Made by a program: the position numbers and the translations under genes. The notes under the pieces were generated by a model. That model was not told the origin of the DNA. It was given only the letters and a program-made list of their open reading frames with translations, and made no database searches. DNA of 64,000 bases from Cheilinus undulatus (taxonomy: Eukaryota; Chordata; Actinopteri; Labriformes; Labridae): NCBI RefSeq assembly GCF_018320785.1, contig NC_054867.1, positions 49,909,355 to 49,973,354 on the forward strand, given 5' to 3'. Positions within the stretch are counted from its first letter, which is position 1. The number at the start of each line of letters is the position of its first letter. Of this stretch, positions 22,086 to 51,606 are shown piece after piece.

Positions 22086-25000
22086 TCATGTCCCTCCTCC
22101 CAGCAGTGGAGACGATTCGGAGGATTCACGTTTGTGACCCGGCGGCAGGTCGTACAGGTGACTGCTCTGTAAAACTGCCTCTGCTCGCAAGTCGATTTTC
22201 TGCATAAAAAAGAAACAGCACAAAGACGAGGTCAGGAAACATTGTCTTTCTGTGCAGGAGGTGAGAAGGGACAATTTAAATTAAATATAAAAATATCCTA
22301 TAAAATGTCTACACTCAGCTCAAACTTCAGTCCAGAGAACAAGTTACCAAAATGACCAATTTTAGGTCCCCGTCATTGGTTTGGTCTTTAAAGAGTAAAT
22401 ATGGCACAATTATGTTAAAGTGACTCTTCTCAGCAGCTAAACCTGAGTACCTGGAAGTCTCTGATGTAGGTGAGGAAGAACATGATGAAGGAGAAGGCCA
22501 GCGACCACTCAGACACTGTGCTGATGATGTGAGCCGTGTAGCCCTAAAATGACCAGAAACAAACCAGAATGATGCAGAAATGTTTTTAAAGAGCAGGAAC
22601 TTTTACAGGAACTAGGAACCTCTTCAAGAACATACTGATATTATGTGCTTGCGTGACACAATGGTCTCATACATTTATCTGCCTGTAATCATAAAATATT
22701 TCACATCTGAGAATGAGACACACTGACCGTCTCTCCAGGAGTCCAGTGAAGCTTCTGAGGAACGTCTACTCCTCTCAGGCTGGTGTACATGATGACCGAT
22801 GATACAAACACTGACACAGAGGTTAAGGATCAATAGGAAAACACTTTGCTGAAGGTAATCAGGCTCTTTTTATAATATCAGAGGGAAGCCAAGCATGGCC
22901 CTTACATTTCATGATCACACTGTCTCAAATATTGGCTTCAGCTTTGGTATGAGTTTGTCTGTCTTGAAATAAACCCATCCACCTACTTTCCCCTGACTCC
23001 TCCTGGTCTCTGTGTCAAGGTGTGACGATATTGATATTAAAAGATACTGCTGATGATGCTGGTAAAAGTCCACACTCCGATACATAGCCGGACCACGTAG
23101 GTGGTCTTACTGTGGACTCGAGGCTGCATGTAAAGCGACAGCAGCGTCTGGACCAGGATGTAGAGAGCCCCCACCCCGAAGGTCAACACGGCCCCCACCA
23201 GGTGCATGGAGAACAGCGTGGTCTTCTGCTCTGACAAAAACATACATTGCTTAATAAATGAAATGTTCAGAATCATACAGGTGTGACCTGATCCAAGAGC
23301 AGCACAGCTCACCTGGAAGTTTGCAACCACACACATCCCGAAGGAGCTGATGAAGCCGAGCAGCAAGCCGGAAAGGTTAAGTCTCCTTTGTTTGACGTCC
23401 TCATCATCAATCAGAGCCTCCACCTGCTTGTAACGCACGTAGACGGTGGCCATGCCTGCACAGACATGAACATGCATGAACCAACGGCCCATAAAGCCCT
23501 CTCTTATTCCTTCTCAAACTCAAAAAGTTCTTTACGATAAGTTATAAAACCACATCTCTAGTAAAGATGAATGATAAATGCATTCAGATTTGTAAAATGT
23601 CACCTTTTGATGGTCTGCTGATTCTGGTTTTGAATAATTATCAGTTTTTAGTTAATAACAGTTAGAGGTATGGAAGCCATAAAACTCTGCAGCTCACAGC
23701 TGCCAAATGCTCCTCAGTGCAAAGCACCACACCTCCTGCAATAACTAACACACCTCTAGTCTTTAGTGTATTCTCTAAATAAACAGTTTGAAATGATTTA
23801 CATACAGTTTGAAGCATGACTTACCTAAAAACGCTGAAATATCCAGCATGATGCCAAACACACATCTCTCTGGAGGCATGGTTCCTGTATCACTAAAACA
23901 CAAAAAAACTTTATAAGGCTTTGTTTATCCTTCGATAGAAAAAAATAAGGTTTTAGTAAACATCGCATTTATGACAAATAAGATATGACGATATATATTC
24001 ATCACCATTTCAGTACAGAAAATCAGGAACTGTAAACTAAGAGGAGGAAACAGATTTACATTCACACAGTCAAGCTTGAATATTGTGTTGCAGACCTTTT
24101 TATTTGAAATAATTCAGATTTATTTGTGTTAAATGGTTTGAAATTTGGTTCACAATCTGAAAGATTTTTTAAACATCACTTGGAACTTAAATTTCACATT
24201 TTTTTTTTTATTTCTGGAGTTGCCTTTCTAAAGACTCTTTGTTTGTGCCTGTACTCCAAAATTGTTCAAACACAGCATTCAATTTAATTCAGGTGTTCCT
24301 GGGTAGGTGATTTGACTGATTTTACCCAGAATCATTTTTTCTTTTTAAGATTTATTTTTGGGCATTTTTGTGCCTTTATTTAAAAGATGACAACAGTGGA
24401 TAGAGTTGGAAACAGGGATGAGAGCAGGAGAGACATGCGGCAAAGGGCCATGGGCCGGATTCAAACCCAGGCAGTCCGCGTACATGTGGCGCGCCTTAAA
24501 CCACTAGGCCACCTGCACCGCTTTACCCAGAATTCTGAGGGGTTAAGAAAGTTTTAAAGAAGAACCTGCATAGCATTCCCCCTTTTTATGCCCATATAAG
24601 GGCATGAGACTGCAGGGCTTTGTGCAAACACAAAAAGCACACAAGTGTGAGAGGATGAAAGAAGATATAAGAAATGTTTAAATTAAAATAAACTGTAAAA
24701 ACAATCGCAATAATTTGAAATACTTTGACAGCTATAAAGTAGATGCAGTGATGCTCTAAATGACACAAAAGAGGAAAATTTAATTTTATCTTTTTTTTAA
24801 GATTTATTTGGGGCTTTTTAGTGCTTTTATTCAACAGAGGAGGACAGTAAATAGAGTTGGAGAGTGGGGAGAGACATGTGGCGAAGGGCCACAGGCCGGA
24901 TTTGAACCCTGCCCTCATACATGGGTTGCGCCTTAGACTGCAAGGCCATCTGCACCCAGAGTTGATTTTATTTTTAGCACCAGTAGTGGATATCAAATAT

Positions 25001-26121
25001 ATGTGACGAACACATTAATTGAACGAAATCACTGGTTCACAGTGCTTTCTTCAGTATATTATGGATCATGCTGTAGTAAGAAAAGGATGCATTCAGATGA
25101 GTTAAAAATAGCTATGCATGGGGGGGGGGGGCTCTAAAACCTGATGCTTTAAACTGATCAAACACCATTCAAACACATTTATACCTGCTGTGAGTGAAGA
25201 AATAATTTTTTTGTTAGTGTCTAATGATAAAACTCCTGCACATGTGCTAAATCTATATTCATAGTTTAATAGTCTGCAGCTAAGATCAAACACTGTCCAT
25301 TTATGATCATATTTTAAGACATGTATTTTGCACATTATTTAATTCTATAAATGTGTTCAAGTGATTTTAAAAAATGCTGTTTATCACAACTAAGAAAGCT
25401 TTGGTGAATGTCAGAATTTTCTCAAACTGTGTCAGAGAGTTTAAAGAACAAATTTCTTCTTAAGAATGGTCAGTGAATGAGGCCCATAGCAAGCATTTCA
25501 GATATCTGTAAACACATGCACACTTGGACCTCCAGTTTTTGAGAGGGCTTATTGGGGGAAGCTGTTCTCTTCAGTGTTGTTTTCACAAGTTTTAAGTGCT
25601 ATCAGTTTTTAAGAATCTAATTTATGGACTGTAGTGTTTGTGATCAATTTAGATATTTAAATCAAAGCAAAAGTGCTTATAACAGTTCTCGTAAAAATGT
25701 CTTTTTAAGTTCAAGGCATATAAATGCTAGATTTTTTTCCAGGTTTTGTTTGGGTAATGAAACATTATCATTGCTGCATAAATCTCACATTCACAGCTCT
25801 CAAGGCATCCTTCTTGCTCTTTCTCTCTTTAAAAACTTCCTTTGCTATCTTCAGGAAGCTATGGCTGAAGAAGTGGATGCCTGTATGTGTAGGTTCTACT
25901 AGCATGCATTTATGGGTGTCTGATGTCTGCAGCCAGGTGCTGCTCCATTTCATTGGTAATGTGAGTCTGAAGTTATGACGAGACTCTGACCTGATGTACG
26001 GCAGCAGGGGATCCACATGTCTCAGCACCACGGCTGTGATGTAAGCAAAGATGAAGGACGCTGCTGTCCAGATGACCAGAGCAACGGGCAGGATGCACAG
26101 ACCCTGCTGGAACCACCACAT
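22086..26121 (-). CDS. dram2: DRAM2, DNA damage-regulated autophagy modulator 2
   Basis: DRAM2 is a six-pass membrane protein of lysosomes that promotes autophagy; human mutations cause a retinal dystrophy. Seven coding exons on the minus strand: 26121-25991, 23892-23825, 23455-23313, 23225-23048, 22810-22728, 22543-22451 and 22199-22086 (810 nt, 269 codons plus stop; human 266). All GT/AG and in phase. Signature pieces are MWWFQQGL at the start, the first membrane segment [96 protein letters not shown] and the tail [18 protein letters not shown] and the YVRYKQV pattern favour DRAM2 over DRAM1. Teleosts may keep two copies and I cannot say which this is. Intron 1 holds two SINEs. An upstream non-coding exon near 29.3 kb is likely. 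Confidence 0.95.
24333..24521 (-). mobile_element. tRNA-derived SINE with 12-bp target-site duplication
   Basis: Read on the minus strand, the element starts with GGTGCAGGTGGCCTAGTGG, an A-box-like pol III promoter, followed by a B box GGGTTTGAATCC, and ends in an AAATAAAGGCA... tail. TTTACCCAGAAT occurs on both sides (24321-24332 and 24522-24533) as a target-site duplication, as left by LINE-driven insertion. It sits in dram2 intron 1, in the same orientation as the gene. Confidence 0.8.
24799..24957 (-). mobile_element. Second tRNA-derived SINE of the same family
   Basis: The same layout as the copy 0.4 kb to the left: GGTGCAGATGGCC-like start, B box GGGTTCAAATCC, then AGTGCTTTTATTC-like (plus-strand) tail sequence. 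It is more diverged, and no clean target-site duplication is visible. Confidence 0.7.
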
Positions 26122-26163
26122 GGCTCCTCCCTCTGAGAGCGCGTCCTCCTGGTTCACTCCGTC
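26122..26163 (-). other. dram2: 5' UTR part of the first coding exon of dram2
   Basis: The minus-strand acceptor TGTTCTTACAG at 26164 opens this exon, leaving 42 nt of leader (GACGGAGTGAACCAGG...) before the ATG at 26121. The leader has no upstream ATG. Confidence 0.6.
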
Positions 26164-27479
26164 CTGTAAGAACAGACAGGTAGAGATGCACCAGCTGCAA
26201 ATATCACCAAAATTTTCTCTCATGCTTGACCATGAAAACAGATCAGAGTTTGTCCATAAAGAACAGCATTCAGCTCCTGAACACCATCTAAACTGCACAA
26301 AAAGACTGGCAGTATTTCATTACCAAGGATTTACCTGTGTATTTGTATGATTTCAGACAGACTGCAAAAGTTTGCTTGCAATTTCAGATACTAGAAAAAA
26401 GGAAATACTGGATGCCAATGACTTCATTTTTTGTGGTATTAAAACAATAATTTGATTTTTACTAGTTTATTATAGGTTTAAAATTCTTGTATTATAACAA
26501 CCCTTCTCAGGATTTGAAAATAATCCATCACAATCTGATCAAATGTAAAGCATAAAATGAATTCCCTTGTTATGCTGAAATCTGGGATTTGAAAAAAAAA
26601 AAAAAAGTTTAGGTCAAAAGTTATTTAGTTCAGTATCAAAGAGTGATTAATAAACAGTCATTTTATTATTTCTGTTTGTTGGGAAACTCATAAATCTTGT
26701 AGGAGGCAAGCACATTGAGCTGAAGCAGTAAATACTATTTACTCCATAATTTGATTTCTGCGTGACTTATAATAAACTTATCCTGGATAACACGATCAAA
26801 TGTGGAAGTTAAGAGCCAGCTGGAATGTGCATTTCATGAGGGAAGGAAAGCTTATTTATGTTTTTTTTTACATAACAATAAAGAAATTTTGCTTCTGAAT
26901 GGTTCATTTAACATCAGAATACAGAAGTAAAAGTTCCGACTACAGTTTTGAAATGAATTTTAAACTGTGATATCGCTGCTGTTGGGCCAAAACCTCAAAT
27001 CTCCAAAATAAGCACCCTGCAGGAAATGACAGAAACACTGTGTATTTTAAATAATTTAACACTGAATGGTCACAGTTTGCATCTTTTTGTCACTTTTTTA
27101 CTGGTTTAAAAAAGTAAAAACCTTCTGATGGATGTTAAGAGGGACCAACAGAACTCATTTATGTAAAAAAAATACAATAATAAAAAATAAGATACATGGT
27201 TTTTGCTCAATGCCAGGGAAGTAAAAGTCAAATGATATGAGTGCCTGTTTCAATACCATGAAAACTAACAAAACAGAAGTCACAGGCACCATAATATTAT
27301 GCAATTTCTTTTAGAGTTTTTACAAACTGCAGGCAAACTCCTGCACATGGTCTAATAAAAAACAATAGCAAGGTTTCAGTATGGAAGCTTTTTGAGAAAA
27401 AAGGGTTAGTTCCTTGACAAAAAAAGATACTTAAAAAACAAATTAGAGCATATAACCCCCCAGAAATAGGGAAAAAAGG

Positions 27480-38448: not shown

Positions 38449-41400
38449 TCAGTGAGGGGCGGAGCTGAGCACCGAACAAGGCTTGATTTTGAAAACAAAG
38501 ATGTGAAGATGGCAGGCAATCTGGTTGCAAACACTGACACAGTAACGTACCAAGTCGAACAAGGAAATGATCTGCAGGAGAGAGAGGAACAGAGAAATCA
38601 GTCTTTACAGACAGGAGAGAAGCACAGAAATGACAGGAAAATAATAAAACCTCCCAAATTAAAGAGACAATTTTAAAAAAAATAACAACATATAAGGATA
38701 AAAGAGCAGAAGGGCTGCTGGATCTTTGTGGCTCACTCAAGCACTCTTTGTAAACCTCTGATTTGCTTTGCTCAGTTCATCTTGTGAAGGGGGGGCTGGG
38801 AGGGTGGCGTGTGATAGGACAATCCTAGATCATGTAGAAATAGAATGCATCTGTGATCTGCTAAAGCTTGGGGGAATTGCATTCTACTTGACTAGATCTA
38901 CATTCTCTCACCCCCTCCCTTTCTGCTTTGGTGGAGTCAGACTCATGGCTGAAAATGAAATCTAAGATTTAGGTCTGAAAAAGAGCTCAAACTGGCCTAC
39001 ATGGAACTGCTTAAGGTTTTTTTTCTGAACTGTCAAGGTGTAAGAAAAAGTTATTTGGAAAATCTGCACAAAGTCTGCAAACTATCTTGACAATCTCAGG
39101 AGACCACATCCTGAAAGTCAGACGACTGAGAGACAGAGACATCACAGTCAGCGCCACAGTCTGCATTACATGACTGTGCATCACAGAGGCAGATCTAGGC
39201 CTGTAGTTTTCACTGGTACATTCTATTTTATTCTGCTTTTTCAGTGTTTTACCAGCTTACATACAAGCATCTCCACCTCTTCACATGAGGCTTAAACTGT
39301 CAGGACAAAAGTGAAGTTTTTAATTCTTTTTTTTTTTTTCTTAACAAAGGGAATCATTGAGGTCTGGACCTCTGTCATTTAAAAAATGTTTTAGACTTGG
39401 GGTGCAGGTGGCCTAGTTCGGTGGTTCCCAACCTGGGGTCTGGGACCCCCAGGGGGGTGCCAAAGATCTTGGGGGAGGGCAAGGCTTTGTCTGCTCTAAG
39501 GCTGCCAAAATTAGATTTGCAAATATTGACTAAAACCGTGATAAAGCAGTAATTAAATAATATATACAAAGGTTTTTTGATAAGAAAAGCATGCATGGAC
39601 CCTTTTCTAGGGTTTTATCACTAAAACAATTAAAATCTATGTTGATTTTTTGGTGGCAGTGTGTCACTCGCCAACCAGGGTGATCTTTGTCAGACAAAAG
39701 CTTTTCGACCAAACTTCGACCAGTCGAATGGAAGCTGTCAGTCCTACTATGAATAAACTACTTGTATAAAGCTACAGCTATATGAAGTGCACTTGTCAGA
39801 ACAAATAATATGCTATAAAATGGTGCCCAATGAACACTAAAGTAGATTTTAAAGCCCAACGGAGAGGACACAAAACCACATCAGAATTTCACTGTGGTGA
39901 TTTCTGGGAGATAAAAACTTTAGGTGCTTAAAATGTTTGGGAGAAGACCTCCAGACCCCCTTAACAGCATCTGTGCATTTAAAAAATGTAAGGGAAATAA
40001 ATGTGTTTTTTTGGTCAGAAAATAGAAAAAAGCCTCAAAAATCTGAATGAAAAAAGAATTGTGATAAACTCGAGATTATGATCAAGCCATGAAAAACATT
40101 CATGTTTTCAATCCAAAAATTAATCATAAAAAAATACAAACTACAACCATCCTTGAAAAAGGAAATCCAAAGCACATTTTCCACTTTTTGTACACTACTG
40201 GCTTTAAGCTATTTTATTTTGATTTAATGTTAATAAATCGGATTTTCTATTACTCAGAATAATAAACTAAACGCTCCCATCAGTGCTTCCTGTAGCCTTT
40301 GAGTATTGGCTCTTACAATTTAAACTTTACTAAATGCAATATCGTCAACAGTGAGTCTCACCAGTGTTCATATAAATAGTAGTTCCATGCATCATCTGCT
40401 CACAATATAGTATTACATTTTCATGCAGTAACCTTCATCACAAAGACGCCTTTATAAAAAACACCATATGTTCTTACCAGTGCAATCCATAGCACCAGGT
40501 ACTCATCAATAAAACTATTGAAATATTGATCCAGGAATAGAAGTCCTGGGCCCAGGAAGGCTAAATCGTGGAGATGCATCTCACTTTTTGTCATATGTGC
40601 TACCTGCAGACAGACAGAAAAAACATAAGTATGAAAAGCATCAAACTCAGCTGTCTAACTTTATTTGATTCCAACATACAGACAGTTTTAAATCATTAGG
40701 AGGATTTTTTTAATGGAGCAACCTGAACCGTCTAACCTTGCAAAACTTAAAAAAAATACTTATCTTTATTTTTCTCATTGTAGCATATCATTTGTTAAAT
40801 GTAAGATTTAATATATCTTATAAAAAGAAGGTTTAACTTACAACTAATTTATTGGTGATTTTGGCCGAGACAAAGCCGAAGGCCAGGATATAAAGACACG
40901 GATGTTTCTCGAAGAGCTGAACAGCAGACTTCTTGTAAATCATCATTGCCAAAATTATTACTGAACCAATATGTAAGACAGGAGAGAGGACGCTGGTTCC
41001 CTGAGGACAGACACAAAAACAAAGACAAGAACTGGTAAAGTATGAGGAAATAAACTGGAGATCTGCTGTTGTTTAGAACTAAAACAAAACATTGCAGAGA
41101 TAAAATGAAGCTCAATTTAATAATTCTGTTCATCCTTCATTTATGCTCTAAATAGGAAAATAATTCAGATTGAAGGCAGGTGGTAGATAAAGACAACAGC
41201 TTACTTAAAATTTATTTTTTTTTTTAAATCCCTACTAATCACTGAAGCAAAGGAGGATAAATCACAGTTTTTCAAGTCCTTATTGACAAAGTGAGTTATT
41301 TTTAGAGTTATTTTTCAAATGAGTGCTGCACTGCAACACTAATGTGGTTGGAAATCAGGACTTAGAGCTTGGAGTGATTATTCTGTCAAATACACTGTTT

Positions 41401-44400
41401 AATAATGTCAAACATTTAGAAATGTGCAGGAGTGCATGTACAAAATGACACAATAACATCCAATGCTCTTCCTTAAGTGCAGAAAGCATTTATACTTTTC
41501 AGAAGTTCGTGGTTACTGTTTTTCTCTGTGTAAGGCTAGCCACACACTACATGATTTTAAGCCCGATTCGAGGCCAGATTTTCTTCCTCCAATGATTGCA
41601 TATCTCAAGTAGGGATGTTTCTAGGTGTCTATTTCCCTAAACGCTCATCTAAATTGCATTTAACAGACTAACCTAAAGAGTAAGAAATATTTAGAAAACA
41701 GTCTAAATTCTTACAAGGTTATTGTGTTAGAGGGTATGATGTGAGCCTGATACACTCTGTACAGCGTGGCTAACATTAGCAGCTAGTTCTGTCAGCCTTC
41801 GTTCCTTTCTGCAGATTAATGCTGTGCTTTGATATGTGGTCTCTATTCACTTCAGTTGAGTATGTGAGTTGTGGTTGACAGCTTACATACCACTTTATTT
41901 CCATTTACGACTTAAAAGCTGTCATACCGCGCTGTTCCTACTACACGCTAACTGCTAAGCTTCTCATTTTTATGTTGGGTGCAGTGAGGGGGTGAGCTCA
42001 GGTAGGAAGACAGTGGCCATTAACTGAAGCTACAGCGTCCTCTAGTGGCAGGAGGCTTACTACAGTTTAAAAGAGCATTATAGACCAGGATTTCAAGCCC
42101 ATGATTAGCTAATTTGATAAACAAATTAATAATCGTGCACATCCCTAATCCAGAGTGACTGTTACAAAGTGAATGTTGGATAGCACAAGGTGCAGATTAC
42201 TTTCTACTTCCACATCCATTGAGCTGTCTGTGAGGTTTTCAAAGTGAAATGCAGCTTTCAAGGGCACAGTGGTGTCTTTATTGTCCATCACTGTGGGAGC
42301 AGAGAGATGCTAAGGTGAGTAGCATTAATGTGCTGCTCCCCTACGGTGGCTATACTACGCCTAAAGAGACAAAGCCTGATTACTGCCATTAAGAATACAT
42401 AAGGCATTACATTTGGACCTTAATCTCACAGAGACTGGTGCATTAATGCTGATAGCCCTAGTTAATACATAAAACATATCCTCTTTCTGCTATGTTGGAC
42501 TGTGAGAAGAAGGATTTTTATAACTAACTTATCCTGGGGTTATTTTAGGACTACTTCCTTCCCACATCAGCAAGAAGAGCACAGGAACTTATTATGTTTG
42601 GTCTCAGGACCTGATTTTACCATCTGTTTGAAAGGTCAGAGCTAAACTAGGGAAGGTTTACTCTCCTTTTACCTATAGGCAGACACATATGACTGCATTT
42701 CTGCATCATTTATTACCTCCGCCAAGGAGGTTATGTGATAGGGAGGGTTTGTTTGTTTGTTAGCAACTTAACTCAAAAACTCATGGACAGATTTGATGAA
42801 ATTTTCAGGAAATGGCATAAGGAAGAACTGATTAGGTTTTGGGAGTGATCTGGATCACCGTCTGGATCCAGGAATTTTTTAAAGGATTCTTTACTATGGG
42901 GAGACAGGGCTAATGGTGGAGGTCTGCGCTCTCCGAGTGCTTTTCTAGTTGATGACTGTGGGTGATCTTGACAATATTTGCCATTTAAATTTGCAATTTC
43001 ATGTATTTTAATGTACTAAAGTCATTTATTTTAAGTTTGCATGGCAGTTCAATGTTTGACAGAAACTTTATTTGCTGTGCCAGGACTCTGTTGAAAAACG
43101 TGTTTTATCTCTCCAAGGTCAAATAAAAGTTCTCTAAAGAATGAGGAGTAGAGAAGTTTCCAGACTTACAGCTATTGTGGATCCATTTTTGCCCACACCT
43201 CCTGTAAAAATAACTCTGAAGTAATTGGTGCAGGAGAAGATGGCTCCTAAAAAAGTGCAGACGGCTGGAACCATTTTCATCTGGACATTAAGGATCGGAA
43301 TCTGGGAAGTTAAGACATTAAATACTAAGATTAAGAGAAGATATAGCAACACCACATTTCCATTAAACACTGGAACAATCACAGCAAATTTTAGCTACTA
43401 ATTTGTGAGTCAATTTAGCTTAACATCAACAATAAAAGCATCATGAGTAATGTTAGAGAATGGCAGATGGTTTCTATTTCTGATCACAATTACAGTAAAC
43501 AAGGATGTTAGAGAAGCCTTTTCATTACAAATATCATTATATATTCATGACACAAACGTTCAAATTAAGCTTGATCTGTACGAATTAGAACCAATCACAA
43601 TTACCAGTGACTGCCAAAAAGCAGATCCTCCCACGGCGGCCAGCAAATACATGATTATTATGAAGATTTGCACCTCAGTCACATCAATGCTGAGTGGGAG
43701 GAGAGAGCAGAGAGTCGACAGTGAGGATTAGTGACGTCTACCAGCACACACTCATCCTGCGGACTTCTTCCACAACACACAGAGCTGATGGGATGCTGAT
43801 GTTTTCTCCTGCTGCTCAAATCACTGTGAGCAGGTTTAAAAAACCCAAGATCAAACAGGGAATTCACAGCAAAAAAGATGCAATCAGTAATTTCTCTGTG
43901 GCTTTTTCATACACAGGCACAGATCACTTACCTGCATAGGTAATGACTTTTTTATGAGCAAAATGTTTTTAGAAATGACCTGGGAAGGGTAATCATAGAT
44001 GCATATTTTCACATTTTTTGTGTATGGATTAAACAAAAAAGACTTAATGTGTTAATTAATGAGCTTTAGAGATTTTCTTTTGTAGTTTTGAACTGTTTCT
44101 GTCTTAATGCTAAGCTAGGCTAACCATGTCTAAATCACAGTGTGTACAATGAAGTGGTTGTAGCCTCCAGGTCAAAAAGAGAAACCAACGGGAAACTTCC
44201 TGGAGACTGACCAGTGCTATGGGACTGCAAAGACTGACCAAAAAGAGAGAAACTTGCTCTGTAGTGCTCTTTGCATGCAGATTGCTGCTCAGTATATGGA
44301 ATTTGAGGGTTACAAATTTATGGACCTGATCACCTATGAAGTTATTCTTGAAACAAGATGCTAATTCATAAAATCAGTTCAAGTGGTTAAGCTGTGTCCC

Positions 44401-47400
44401 ATGCACGTGGGCAGCCTGGGTTCAAGGTGGCTTGAGGCTACTTTCCTGCACGTCTGTGCCCCTGACTCTCATCATTGTTTCAGTCTCTAACCACTGTCCT
44501 CCTCGATGAATAAAGGCATAAAAAGCCCCAAACAGATTAGTAAAACATTTAGTAAAACAAAAAACTGTAACTGTCAATCAACAGTTCAAACCCACGAGAT
44601 ATTGAGTTTAAAATCATGTTAAAAGGAACAAATTAAGGGTGAAACCTAATCAATTATCCAAAAACGTCAGCATTTTTGAGCCCTAACAGCTTATTATTTC
44701 ACCTCGACTGTATCCAGCCTTAACCTTGCAAAGCAGATGGATACGCCCAGTTCTGTTTCTCACTGGCGAATCCACCTTGCAAAGCTCCTGTCTTAACCAT
44801 TTGGGCCTGGTTAGAAAGTGACAGGACCAATCAGTGACGAGGGGTAGTACTTTCGGGTGCGGCAGAGTCATGACGTAAGCAAGCAGCAACAAGAGGTCAG
44901 TGCAGTTATGGCGGAAGACACTAGCGTGGATGCTGCTAAAGCGCCAGCTTTATCAGAAATTGACAACATATCTTCATTAAAAGAAGAACAAAGAACAGCG
45001 AGTTGTTTTCTTTGTAAAAATGACAGGTCGTTTACTGACATGTCTACAATCGTCATGGTTTGCATTAGTTCTATATGGAGTTTATTCCTCGGTAGCTGCG
45101 ACGATGCCACGTTTTTTGTTGCTCTGATTGGCCCGTAAAGATGTGACAGACATCAAAGGGTTTCCAGATGGATGTGTGAAACACATCCATCTGGGGTGTC
45201 AGGTTAATCCCGCCTTGAAATAAGGACTAAATTTGTCAAGTATCAGGATTTTCTGCTACATCCATCAGCTTGGCGATATAAACATTACACTGCAACTTAT
45301 GCAGTGTCCCTGCAACTTACGATGTTTTCAGAAAAACTTGTCCTGAATTTGTCAAGAAATTTCAAGGTGTGTAGGAAAAGGGCATCTTAATCACTATCAT
45401 ATTTTAGGTTTTGATTATTTGCATATTGTGTTCCCATCACAGCATTTTTGCCTTCTAAAGACACGTGTCAATGTTTACTCTATAACATAGATATCTGTCA
45501 TTTCTTAATATCCTGAAGTTTAATCATACCTTCAAGTTTTAGGTCATGATAATACACTACTAGTTTAGGTTGGGGGTCATGAGGCACAGTGACATTTAAT
45601 TTTAGCTTCACTTACTGAAGAGCCATATTTACTGACTGCATCTTTCAGCAGAACAGACCCATCTGAACTGTTTCGTTCAGTCATTGTGGAAGAAGAGAGC
45701 AGCGAGCCATGCAGCAGCAGTGTTCAGGAGGTTTACCATCACGTTCCACAGAGAAGGACCCACAGTGGCTGTGAGCATCTGTAATCCTGCTAGACAGATC
45801 TGCACCTCTGTTATGTCAAATCTACACACAGAACACACGTCCATATTTACTGCAGCTCACATTTAACAGCTAAAACCTCATTTAATTACTGACAGAAACA
45901 CAATAAAATAAACATGATCCGTAAATCTAAGATCTCTGTGTTGTCTTCTTTTGCGCCATCTATAGCAATAAAAGGTAATTGCAGGTGTGCTTCAGGCCAA
46001 AATGTCATCCTAGGTGACTATTTGCTACACCATCTACATGTGATGATAGAATTTGATCTTTTTCTTCTGATTTTTGCTTGTTTTTCTGAGTTGGATTGCC
46101 TGCAGTCATAAATACGTCTGTGTTCAGCCTCACTGAATGTTACTCATAAGTCAGCAGAGACCAGAGAAGACAGCACACAGCCTCCACCTACTCTCCTGTA
46201 GACTAACCTCTGCTGGATGATGGATGCTGTTTGGAATTTTTCTGTGAAATCTGACTCAACATTCAGTTTGAAACAACAAAGACCATACAGAAATCAATCA
46301 AAGTCTTTGTTCAGCAGGCCATCATTTCAGCCACCACTGGGTTAAATCATGCAGCTAAATATAAAGACTACACTACAATGCACGTATCTGAAAAAATGCA
46401 CATTGGTAGTTTTAGTTCTAAAGCACTTAATGTGTATTTGGATTAACTTGGTGCATGTTTGACAATGTGTCTGGATAACACACCTGTTTTTATGACAAAA
46501 CACATAACGGTTATGAACTAAAGTGTTTTCTCAAGGTGAGCCTTTCAGGTTGTACAAAGATCCTAAATTAAACTAAGCAGAGTTGTTGACTTACATGCCG
46601 AAGCGCAGCGTTCCTGACACGTATGTTTGCCAGTGGGCGCAGTAGAACATGAACATCCCGGCAAAGCAGCAGAAGAACATCCAGTCTGGGTTGGTTCCCA
46701 TTTGAACAGCTATACTAGTTCCTAACACCACGAACACTGCAGAGACAAAAGAGATAGACGGTCAGGAACTCTCTGAAGGTATTCAGTTCATACAACTCAA
46801 ATTATTCATATCCCACCCTTTTCCAGTCTATACTGGCATTCCCCAGGGTTCTGTCCTGGCCCCCCTATTACTCATTATCCATTCACTGCCTTCTGGGGAT
46901 ATTTTCTGTGGCTTCAATATCAGAAACACTAACCAGTGGAGAGGGAATCACAGCCGTGGTCGAACAGCTCCCCCAGTGGAGAGCTGCTGTTGGTGCGTCT
47001 GGCCTGCTTTCCGTCGATGGCGTCCAAGGACTGGTAGATAAACAGACCCACAGCACACAGCAGGTACGCCCACAGAGGAGCCTGGGAAAATAAACCACAC
47101 AAAGCAGGGTCAGAAGGCTTGAAGCTACATGGAGGCAGTTGTAGCTTAATTTAATGGAGCACCAATCCTACCTATATTTCCTTCATTTTAGTCCCCACTC
47201 TGCCAGGACTCACCTGTTCAGTGGCAGTGGGGCAGTAGTAGACGAGTACAAGAGTGGTGAAGACATTGGTGGCGAGGCCGATGATGGTGATGAGGTTTGG
47301 GGCGATCCAGGAGGGAACACGACCCACTAACCACTCCCAGTAACGCTGCATCAGAGGCTCCAGCAGGGAGCGACCTGCACTGCTGTACCTGCAGAGACAG

Positions 47401-50400: not shown

Positions 50401-51606
50401 GAAACCACGGATGCTGTGTCCTGTGGACTAAGGAGGTGAGGGACCAATAAGATTGTTATCAGCCCAGAGTTTAAAAAGCCTCCATCTCTGCCCAGGACTG
50501 TTGAGCAGCTAGACTCTCACATCAGAAAAGAATGAGACAACATTCTTCTCCCAAAGGTCCAGCAACTGGTTTCCTCACCTCTCTGCCATCAAATTCAAAA
50601 TGAGCTAATATTTTTCATGAAATGGTAAAATGTCTCAGTTTCAACCTCTGATATATTGTTTATGTTCTATGGATTTATGAGATTTGCAAATAATGACATT
50701 CTGTCTTTATCTAAATTTAAGATGGCGTTACAACTTTTCTGGAATTGAGGTTGTATTAAGAAAATGCAAAATGCAGAAAAAAAAAAAAACTCTCACAAGC
50801 TGCCTTGATTGCGGAAACACTCTGGCAGTGTTTTTAGTACTGACAACAGAACTCTGGAAAGTGCTGGAACAGGCCTGGTATAATATTTCAGACGATGACT
50901 TAAGAAAACTCAAAGACAGTCTTTCCCAAGAAGCTAAAGATAAACTAAAGGCAAAAGAAGGTCCCAAAGGAGGGGGGTGCTTTCGGTGTAGTGCCTGGAT
51001 TTTCCTGGATGTGTTTTAATCAAAAGACTGAGAAATAAATACAAACAGTCATTGAAACATGTCTCAAAGAATAAAGCCAGCACTTTAGAGCAGTCTAACA
51101 AGCCCTTGTTTACATTGTTTAAAAATACCAGTTCAATGTGTATAAATGAACCCAAATATCTAAACAGCTTGTCTCCGTAAAGTTTGCTCATGTCACAAAG
51201 CTTCCTTTCATGCAGCCACAAATGAGGCCATCTTATAAACACACTGAACTATCCACAGTAGACTGTTTGACCTCTGGGCATCACTGTATGTGCATCCCAA
51301 ACACGTCAAAGCCCAACCACACAAGTGGACAAACTGAGTGTAAACGGCCTTAATTATCTCCACACAGACAATTATTTGACTCATCCCCAGTAAGCAGAGC
51401 AGGAATGACTCTTACCTGTGCTCCTCCAGTCTCTTCAGCTGGTGTCGGGACAGCGGGGGAGAGGGCAGTTCGATCAGCCTGCGCAGCACTCCGGGGGCCA
51501 GCCAGCAGGCCGCCTCCATGCCCATGCCCTGCCCGGGGTCCTTGTCCCGGCCAAGGCTTCGGCGAGAACGCAGGCCCCCCCCTTGCTGCTGCCCCGTCGC
51601 GCTCAT
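38449..51606 (-). CDS. cept1: CEPT1, choline/ethanolamine phosphotransferase 1
   Basis: CEPT1 joins CDP-choline or CDP-ethanolamine to diacylglycerol, the last step of the Kennedy pathway, in ER and nuclear membranes. Minus-strand coding exons: 51606-51416, 47388-47214, 47081-46934, 46736-46595, then one of two 85-nt exons (45821-45737 or 43689-43605), 43301-43170, 41000-40842, 40603-40478 and 38571-38449. Either choice gives 1281 nt, 426 codons plus stop (human 416). All junctions are GT/AG and in phase. Exon 1 carries [14 protein letters not shown]. Exon 3 holds the complete CDP-alcohol phosphotransferase motif DGx2ARx8Gx3Dx3D (DGKQARR, then GELFDHGCD). Later pieces are [60 protein letters not shown] and [10 protein letters not shown]. 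The C-terminus after [17 protein letters not shown] differs from the human end. Several membrane segments are visible. It matches CEPT1 better than CHPT1. Confidence 0.95.
41610..42147. mobile_element. Putative hAT-like inverted-repeat element
   Basis: Starts TAGGGATGT and ends with its reverse complement ACATCCCTA. It follows another repeat start (CTAGCCACACACTACATGAT at 41537). No transposase frame, and target duplications are not clear. It lies in a cept1 intron. Confidence 0.35.
42705..42955 (+). repeat. Full unit of the repeat family also seen at 30113-30595
   Basis: Runs from ACCTCCGCCAAGGAGGTTAT through TTAGCAACTTAACTC, GATGAAATTTTCAGGAAATG, GGATCACCGTCTGGATCC and GGTGGAGGTCTGCGCTCTCC to GTGCTTTTCTAGT. 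It lies in the cept1 intron before exon 6's downstream neighbour. The class is not known to me with certainty. Confidence 0.6.
43605..43689 (-). CDS. cept1: cept1 alternative exon 5b (human-like form)
   Basis: The 85-nt exon has acceptor CTCCCACTCAG|C and donor TCACTG|GTAATT. It encodes, after the shared isoleucine, [19 protein letters not shown] then GGSAFWQSL. This closely follows human CEPT1 ([18 protein letters not shown], then FWQSM), so it is likely the default form. The segment forms a hydrophobic helix just after the cytosolic catalytic region. Confidence 0.92.
44381..44533 (+). mobile_element. tRNA-derived SINE, plus orientation
   Basis: AAGTGGTTAAGCTGTGTCC resembles an A-box region and CTGGGTTCAAGGTGG a B box, followed by CATCATTGTTTCAGTCTC and the tail GAATAAAGGCATAAAAAGCC shared with the copies at 24333, 24799 and 58733. 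It lies between cept1 exons 5a and 5b, opposite to the gene. Confidence 0.6.
44724..45203. mobile_element. 480-bp TTAA-flanked element carrying a RecQ-helicase-like fragment
   Basis: TTAA stands at both ends (44720-44723 and 45204-45207). The inverted ends are CCTTGCAAAGCAGATGGAT on the left and CCTGACACCCCAGATGGAT on the right. TTAA target sites are used by piggyBac and Kolobok elements. Inside, a plus-strand frame from ATG 44908 reads [19 protein letters not shown], then [11 protein letters not shown], which resembles the N-terminus and Q motif of RecQ-type helicase genes found in many copies in fish. The frame loses similarity after about 45000. It lies in the intron between cept1 exons 5a and 5b. 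Confidence 0.55.
45737..45821 (-). CDS. cept1: cept1 alternative exon 5a
   Basis: The 85-nt exon has acceptor TGTGTGTAG|A and donor GTGATG|GTAAAC. It completes the codon AT|A from exon 4 and encodes 28 further residues: [14 protein letters not shown], then [14 protein letters not shown]. It ends in phase 0 and joins in frame to IPILNVQMK of exon 6. Length and phases are identical to exon 5b, with 10 of 28 residues the same. The acceptor tract is only moderately pyrimidine-rich. It is less like human CEPT1 than 5b is, so it is the candidate alternative form. Confidence 0.85.
46814..46924 (+). pseudogene. LINE reverse-transcriptase fragment
   Basis: The plus-strand frame [20 protein letters not shown], then [15 protein letters not shown], matches the reverse-transcriptase block 4 pattern (xGVPQGSxLGPxLFxIY followed by LPLGxI) of L2/Rex-type LINEs. 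No flanking reverse-transcriptase sequence continues. It is antisense to cept1 and ends about 10 bp from the donor of exon 3 (46934/46933). Confidence 0.6.
47550..48085. repeat. Putative hAT-like repeat with GATGCACTGATA ends
   Basis: GGATGCACTGATACATCAG on the left and, on the minus strand, AATGCACTGATAGTGAAAAT on the right form imperfect inverted ends. The interior includes GTCACGTTTCGGCTTGTAGC, a phrase also echoed at 54001 (TCACGTTTCGGCACAGGG). It lies in cept1 intron 1 next to exon 2. Boundaries are approximate. Confidence 0.4.
49618..50753 (+). mobile_element. Tc1/mariner-like transposon, internally deleted, with TA duplication
   Basis: Ends CAACCCCGATTCCAAAAAAG and, reversed, CAACCTCAATTCCAGAAAAG, with TA at both flanks (49616-49617 and 50754-50755). 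The transposase start is recognisable on plus ([10 protein letters not shown], then [19 protein letters not shown] at 49940-50130), followed by AKAHLK-like and TVLWSD-like remnants near 50320-50380. It has frameshifts and lacks the rest of the DDE domain, so it is inactive. It sits in cept1 intron 1. Confidence 0.85.

Follow-up and report, generated by a model that had tools for sequence, protein, structure and literature searches.

In a stretch of 64,000 nucleotides (nt) from the fish Cheilinus undulatus (contig NC_054867.1, G000:C3:49909355-49973354; hereafter the window), the minus-strand gene cept1 has two adjacent homologous candidates for its fifth coding exon, 5a and 5b, which are probably a tandem-duplicated pair spliced as alternatives in this fish gene, the use of 5a being a prediction. 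CEPT1 makes the bulk membrane lipids phosphatidylcholine (PC) and phosphatidylethanolamine (PE), and to our knowledge the choice of diacylglycerol (DAG) by enzymes of this kind is only partly understood. The exchanged segment is a helix that forms one wall of the chamber holding the DAG tails, so that cells may switch the lipid preference of the enzyme by splicing.

Exons 5a and 5b in the cept1 gene

Both exons are 85 nt long, with the same start phase, the same end phase and AG/GT borders, and lie between exons 4 and 6 as follows:

46595..46736, minus strand, cept1 exon 4, the upstream exon, ending in a split Ile codon (AT); from the gene model
45737..45821, minus strand, exon 5a, alternative exon for transmembrane helix 5 (TM5); open frame, AG/GT, 10/28 residues identical to 5b
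43605..43689, minus strand, exon 5b, CEPT1-type TM5 exon; 22/28 residues identical to CEPT1 chain 8gyw
43170..43301, minus strand, cept1 exon 6, the downstream exon; from the gene model

Whichever of the two is chosen, the joins to exon 4 (FG plus the split Ile codon) and to exon 6 (IPILNVQMK) are in frame and the product has 426 amino acids. Joint inclusion of 5a and 5b brings a stop 3 nt into 5b, 496 nt ahead of the last junction, and joint skipping a stop in exon 6, 392 nt ahead of it; therefore productive mRNAs would carry exactly one of the exons, and by the general rule those with both or neither should be targets of nonsense-mediated decay. An initial annotation of this DNA had listed the equal length and phases, the intact splice dinucleotides, the ten shared residues, the in-frame fusion of either exon to FG(I) and IPILNVQMK and the frame shift on double inclusion (85 not being divisible by three), all of which were reproduced exactly; the weak 5a acceptor and the pairing of the intron ends, both described below, had no place in it. 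The mutually exclusive tandem pair that it proposed stands as the best fit to the homology, the equal length and phase, the frame logic and the retained family residues.

The homology of the two exons (10/28 residues, 46/85 nucleotides) is well beyond what shuffled sequences gave. When the 82 open AG-85-GT stretches of the right phase on both strands of the window were scored against 5b, 5b itself scored 137, 5a 52 and the next stretch -4. A score of 52 was reached by none of 3000 dinucleotide shuffles of the intron (best 24) and by none of 100000 residue shuffles of 5a. Part of the match is accounted for by the DxTEVQI block; the last 20 residues of 5a alone were matched by 98 of 100000 residue shuffles. 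The identity of 5a to each of five CEPT1-type or CHPT1-type exon 5 sequences is 10-11/28, with differences from each at 17 or 18 positions, and 5b differs from chain 8gyw at 6 of 28.

The early stop that follows from joining 5a to 5b would also suit a poison exon, that is, an exon whose joining to 5b, or whose disturbance of splicing, reduces cept1 output, the protein form of 5a being near irrelevant, and the weak 5a acceptor described below suits low-level use of that kind. An exon of this kind could do without an open frame, homologous residues and a matching end phase, but 5a shows all three and retains six of the seven residues that are invariant in the family, and we consider this explanation unlikely.

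The gene has nine coding exon slots, slot 5 being filled by 5a or 5b, and the remaining exons of the model are:

51416..51606, minus strand, exon 1, coding part from the ATG, with donor GTAAGA
47214..47388, minus strand, exon 2
46934..47081, minus strand, exon 3, with the CDP-alcohol phosphotransferase motif
40842..41000, minus strand, exon 7
40478..40603, minus strand, exon 8
38449..38571, minus strand, exon 9, coding part with the stop

Residues 91-205 of the product match Pfam PF01066 (4.2e-12), and the CDP-alcohol phosphotransferase motif DxxDGxxAR...GxxxDxxxD is present as DAIDGKQAR...GELFDHGCD. With the 5a isoform as query, the scores were 737.6 bits to CEPT1 chain 8gyw, 594 to CHPT1 8ero and 585.3 to CHPT1 9uet, by which the gene is cept1, nearer to CEPT1 than to CHPT1; the product can be aligned over almost its full length with these eukaryotic class II CDP-alcohol phosphotransferases. 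We take 9uet to be human CHPT1. Chains 8gyw and 8ero, matched by length and content, are presumably the CEPT1 structure of PMC10156783 (human) and the CHPT1 structure of PMC10182977 (Xenopus), respectively.

Our genome searches covered one assembly (1.17 Gb). A paralog on C23, assembled from its exons, scored 554.4 bits to CHPT1 9uet, 534.1 to 8gyw and 533.9 to 8ero, and is called chpt1-like here because it is nearest to chain 9uet; a third gene, on C14, we take to be selenoi-like. In the chpt1-like paralog (L011, G000:C23, exon 5 starting at 23731652) the residues matching 51-122 of cept1 lie in a single open stretch, where cept1 is interrupted by an intron, and short introns flank its single 85-nt exon 5. 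Among the neighbours of cept1 in the window, also on the minus strand (23040-26316 and 1257-1535), there are two matches to the DRAM/Frag1 family, one of them under the family cut-off, and one to aminotransferase class V, the latter presumably NFS1-like.

The helix encoded by exon 5

Exon 5 corresponds to residues 210-238 of human CEPT1 (numbering of chain 8gyw, in which residues 28-407 are built), and the membrane helix expected from the initial annotation is found there in published structures, which place exon 5 at TM5, in contact with lipid tails. As described in PMC10156783, V213, V216, F219 and I220 of human CEPT1 TM5 contact the lipid tails and line a two-tail chamber, Q217 seems bonded to the sn-1 carbonyl, D212 is one of the polar residues at the chamber top, and a gap between TM5 and TM6 opens the chamber to the membrane. 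According to work cited there, V216A alters DAG use, and activity losses of 40% for V216L and 60% for Q217L are given. For Xenopus CHPT1, PMC10182977 proposes a slit between TM5 and TM6 as the DAG route and assigns the dimer contacts mainly to TM7 and TM9, and the change of partner between the two forms that had been suggested is thus not indicated.

Exon 5a retains D212, V216 and Q217 and has I213, C219 and L220 in place of the V, F and I of 5b. Residue 219 is F in both 5b and 8gyw and A, A and S in the chpt1-like paralog, 9uet and 8ero, respectively, a small residue at this site being common to 5a and the CHPT1-type sequences. The original paper behind the V216A citation reportedly names, in its abstract, mutations within helix 214-228. 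As TM5 is one wall of the DAG-tail chamber and of its entry slit, an exchange of exons would remodel this wall and alter the preference for DAG tails, and we infer that a 5a/5b switch would tune acyl-tail choice while leaving the headgroup reaction unchanged. A natural swap confined to the exon for the acyl-chamber helix would amount to a ready-made experiment, with two enzymes from one gene whose sequences differ at 18 residues, all of them in exon 5.

The position of TM5 also bears on the possibility that 5a is an alternative last exon, read through past its donor so that the protein ends after 19 more residues and the mRNA at a nearby poly(A) signal. The frame is indeed open for 19 codons beyond the 5a donor before a stop, and ATTAAA occurs at 136 and 212 nt, and AATAAA at 650 nt, past 5a. 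However, the donor and end phase of 5a equal those of 5b exactly, which is unneeded in a terminal exon, and a protein cut after TM5 would be without TM6, which is part of the chamber wall. We regard this explanation as very improbable.

Constraint, splice signals and age of exon 5a

Seven columns are invariant in the five exon 5 sequences used for comparison (5b, the chpt1-like paralog and chains 8gyw, 8ero and 9uet), and 5a retains six of them, the exception being V213, which is I in 5a; of the remaining 21 columns, 4 have the same residue in 5a and 5b (6/7 vs 4/21, Fisher 0.003). By codon position, 12, 22 and 12 of 28 nucleotides are identical between 5a and 5b at the first, second and third positions, respectively (second vs third, p=0.013). 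When 5b was allowed to decay at random to a mean identity of 0.56 or 0.48 (observed, 0.54), the open frame and AG/GT survived in 3.2% and 1.5% of 20000 runs, with indels left out of the model. The retained residues, the codon-position pattern and the decay runs favour constraint on 5a.

These same results speak to whether 5a is a relic, an old copy of the exon that has lost its splicing and is intact by luck or through recent death. Such an origin would fit its weak acceptor without a recognisable branch motif, its less hydrophobic helix and its distance from 5b (10/28 identical, against 18/28 for exon 5 of the chpt1-like paralog), but only about 2-3% of the simulated copies that had decayed at random to this distance still had the frame and both splice dinucleotides (again with indels left out), and the changes in 5a avoid invariant sites and second codon positions. 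We give the relic a small chance of being correct.

Several observations nevertheless weigh against a pair of exons that are both in use. The 5a acceptor has 11 pyrimidines in 20 positions, compared with 14-18 at the eight other cept1 acceptors, an AG is located 28 nt upstream of it, and no yTnAy branch motif was found within 60 nt of it. The Kyte-Doolittle mean of the 5a helix (1.55) is the lowest of six, the five others ranging from 2.26 to 3.13. The weak donors of 5a and 5b (scores of 72 and 79, with consensus percentages as weights) are no mark of regulated splicing, because that of the paralog exon 5 is equally weak (78). Between exons 4 and 6 of the chpt1-like paralog no second exon 5 was found, the known exon scoring 140 and the other open AG-85-GT stretch -8, and no relative turned up when viral and prokaryote contigs were scanned. 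Given its poor acceptor and least hydrophobic helix, splicing of 5a would need help, which fits a regulated exon and equally a dying one.

The acceptor of exon 5b, by comparison, is strong, and a good branch motif precedes it:

43727..43731, minus strand, CTAAT, likely branch site of 5b (A at 43728), identified by motif only

In the alternative splicing that we propose, 5b would accordingly be the default exon by virtue of these two signals, 5a, with its weak acceptor, would be included only where a splicing factor supports its inclusion, and double-inclusion and double-skip mRNAs would be cleared by nonsense-mediated decay. One hexamer near 5a is a weak lead to such a factor:

45708..45713, minus strand, TGCATG, starting after 23 intron nt downstream of 5a

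TGCATG, presumably an RBFOX-type hexamer, occurs four times between exon 4 and exon 6 and 34 times on the minus strand of the window. In addition, a CU-rich stretch of 21 nt is present twice (86% identity), at 43694-43714 in the polypyrimidine tract of 5b and at 45686-45706, 31-51 nt past 5a, and is possibly a shared PTB-type site or a trace of the duplication. Two further candidates were set aside. The lack of a +5 G in the 5a and 5b donors was dropped as a signature of regulated exons, the paralog exon 5 also being without it, and U12-type donors, by which U2/U12 incompatibility could enforce exclusion, are absent from exon 4, 5a and 5b (GTAAGT, GTAAAC and GTAATT, respectively).

As to the age of the duplication, a tree of the 28 columns in seven sequences (gap in the selenoi-like sequence set by hand; 200 bootstrap replicates) placed 5a best outside CEPT1 plus CHPT1, by 0.95 log units over its placement with CEPT1; all three placements are allowed, with bootstrap values of 36-75/100. 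Four sites separate the two CEPT1 from the three CHPT1-type sequences; in 5a none of them has the CEPT1 residue, two have a CHPT1 residue (T227 and L234) and the other two, 219 (C) and 237 (V), have neither, and this CHPT1-like character of 5a is suggestive only.

Pairing across the 5a-5b intron and comparison with known systems

A repeat search from exon 4 to exon 6 identified two nested inverted pairs that connect the ends of the 2047-nt intron between 5a and 5b, each of which was also assessed by folding and shuffling:

45629..45646, minus strand, inner helix of 18 base pairs (bp), 5' arm
43873..43890, minus strand, inner 18-bp helix, 3' arm
45682..45695, minus strand, outer 14-bp helix, 5' arm
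43764..43777, minus strand, outer 14-bp helix, 3' arm

With G-U pairs allowed, the energies are -24.3 kcal/mol for the 18-bp helix (45646-45629 with 43890-43873) and -19.0 kcal/mol for the 14-bp helix (45695-45682 with 43777-43764), and these are the sole uninterrupted helices of at least 14 bp between the intron halves, shorter-range helices of 14-17 bp also being present inside the intron. When the intron was shuffled, 4/5000 sequences had an 18-bp helix between the same end regions and 2/5000 had a nested pair of helices with 14 bp or more each; the best helix energy was equalled in 1/1000 shuffles, or in 1/400 when helices anywhere across the intron halves were allowed, and the total end-to-end duplex energy in 3/500 and, in a second run, 0/200. 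When all 2047 nt were folded without guidance, every one of the 56 bridge pairs was kept, a number that 0/100 shuffles reached (highest, 55), and the pairs of the two helices had mean probabilities of 0.93 and 0.94. The antisense strand of the intron gave a 12-bp pair only. When the genome was searched with the 150 nt that follow 5a and with the 250 nt that precede 5b, either query matched the window alone (very common words being skipped), which makes a repeat origin of the helix arms less likely.

Other pairings were seen in this part of the gene. Of the control introns, 1 and 6 have end-to-end helices of at most 12 and 11 bp and intron 8 none of at least 11 bp; in the duplex-energy controls, run on four further introns with 420 nt or more each, 35-112 of 200 shuffles were as low for introns 1, 6 and 8. 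Intron 4 has a 16-bp pair of its own near its ends (46569-46554 with 45939-45924; 3 G-U, -17.0 kcal/mol; 18/1000 shuffles by energy and 9/200 by duplex energy). A further 16-bp pair (45905-45890 with 45439-45424; 3 G-U, -18.2 kcal/mol; equalled in 19/1000 shuffles) would loop out 5a and crosses the end-to-end bridge, with which it could compete. A pairing that would loop out 5b was rejected (403/1000 shuffles equal), as were six combinations of cross-intron pairing (35-182 of 200 shuffles as low). The middle of the 5a-5b intron (44720-45207) contains foldback pairs, e.g., a 14-bp hairpin without G-U pairs (45194-45181 with 45177-45164), and has the look of a small transposon, and for further pieces of the middle part there are matches of 71-86% at other places in the window.

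The nested end pairing would draw the 5a donor near the 5b branch site and might thereby affect the handling of both exons, a weaker part of our proposal, and we hold a functional role of the bridge to be doubtful. Steric exclusion by a short donor-to-branch distance is known, tropomyosin being a case. For Hatje and colleagues (PMC5740500), a donor and a branch site less than 50 bp apart may interfere sterically. The 5a donor and the likely branch A of 5b (43728) are 2008 nt apart in the linear sequence; if the helices form, the single-stranded path between them would shorten to 76 nt across the 14-bp helix and, with one more helix of 4 bp (probability 0.87), to 62 nt.

Three points have to be added here to those that count against our proposal. 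The well-supported helices (pair probability 0.87-0.94) leave 62-76 nt, above the 50-nt limit of PMC5740500 and so outside the known rule. Two more short helices would reduce the path to 50 and 39 nt, with probabilities of only 0.20 and 0.14, and an outermost 4-bp pair covering the 5b acceptor has a probability of 0.17. Finally, intron 4 also has end pairing, with its 16-bp pair, so that this is no special property of the 5a-5b intron. The folded intron may thus come near, yet fall short of, the distance at which short introns exclude joining, and it could equally block or help the joining of 5a to 5b. Help would suit the poison exon, for which the intron helix would promote joining: a path of 62-76 nt is not under the steric limit, and structures that bring splice sites together can promote splicing, as a passage of PMC10790352 describes.

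The boldest reading of these data is that of an old splice switch, predating the CEPT1/CHPT1 split and lost from chpt1, by which one fish enzyme would switch its acyl chamber from the CEPT1 type (F219) to a CHPT1-like form (C219) and back, resetting the diacylglycerols that enter PC and PE; exclusivity would come from the RNA bridge folding the 2-kb intron, leaving the 5a donor too close to the 5b branch site to join. We consider this combination quite unlikely.

A pair of alternatives as such, our preferred reading, has well-known counterparts. Among the matches listed in searches of open-licence papers, we found no title or abstract opening that mentions an alternative exon 5 of CEPT1 or CHPT1, although gene databases may already annotate fish isoforms. 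CEPT1 and CHPT1 are not named in the main texts, as available, of PMC5740500, PMC4465641 and PMC9741552, and SELENOI is not named in the two of these in which it was looked for. PMC10825154 names CEPT1 once, in a section on differential splicing in sheep whose passage leaves the event unspecified, and PMC4600267 names it once, as a gene for quantitative PCR (qPCR). The vertebrate cases of tandem duplicated exon substitution described in PMC4465641, PMC9741552 and PMC5740500 resemble 5a/5b in that two neighbouring, homologous exons, which agree in phase and in a length that is no multiple of three, exchange a single segment while the rest of the protein stays the same; the cept1 pair is predicted from sequence. 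The phenomenon is thus well known, and cept1 exon 5 appears to be a new gene and site for such pairs.

Long complementary intronic stretches near the exons are also a feature of the RNA structures, competing or long-range, at the mutually exclusive exons of Dscam, 14-3-3 zeta, DNM1 and ATE1 (PMC6071210, PMC8052449 and PMC10790352). By the values given there, the 18-bp helix of cept1 (-24.3 kcal/mol) is close to the DNM1 pair (-25.9, 13 nt), and the ATE1 pairs (-33.2 and -35.9) are stronger. Unlike these cases, as far as they are described there, both cept1 arms lie in the single intron between the exons and no exon is looped out; where docker-selector systems rely on competing structures, in which a single docking site can pair with a selector beside each exon, the strongest pairs in cept1 join the ends of one intron and one weaker, crossing pair would loop out 5a. 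If real, the folded intron would add to knowledge of how vertebrate exons 2 kb apart are kept separate or joined, and it is possibly a variant of the known exclusion arrangements.

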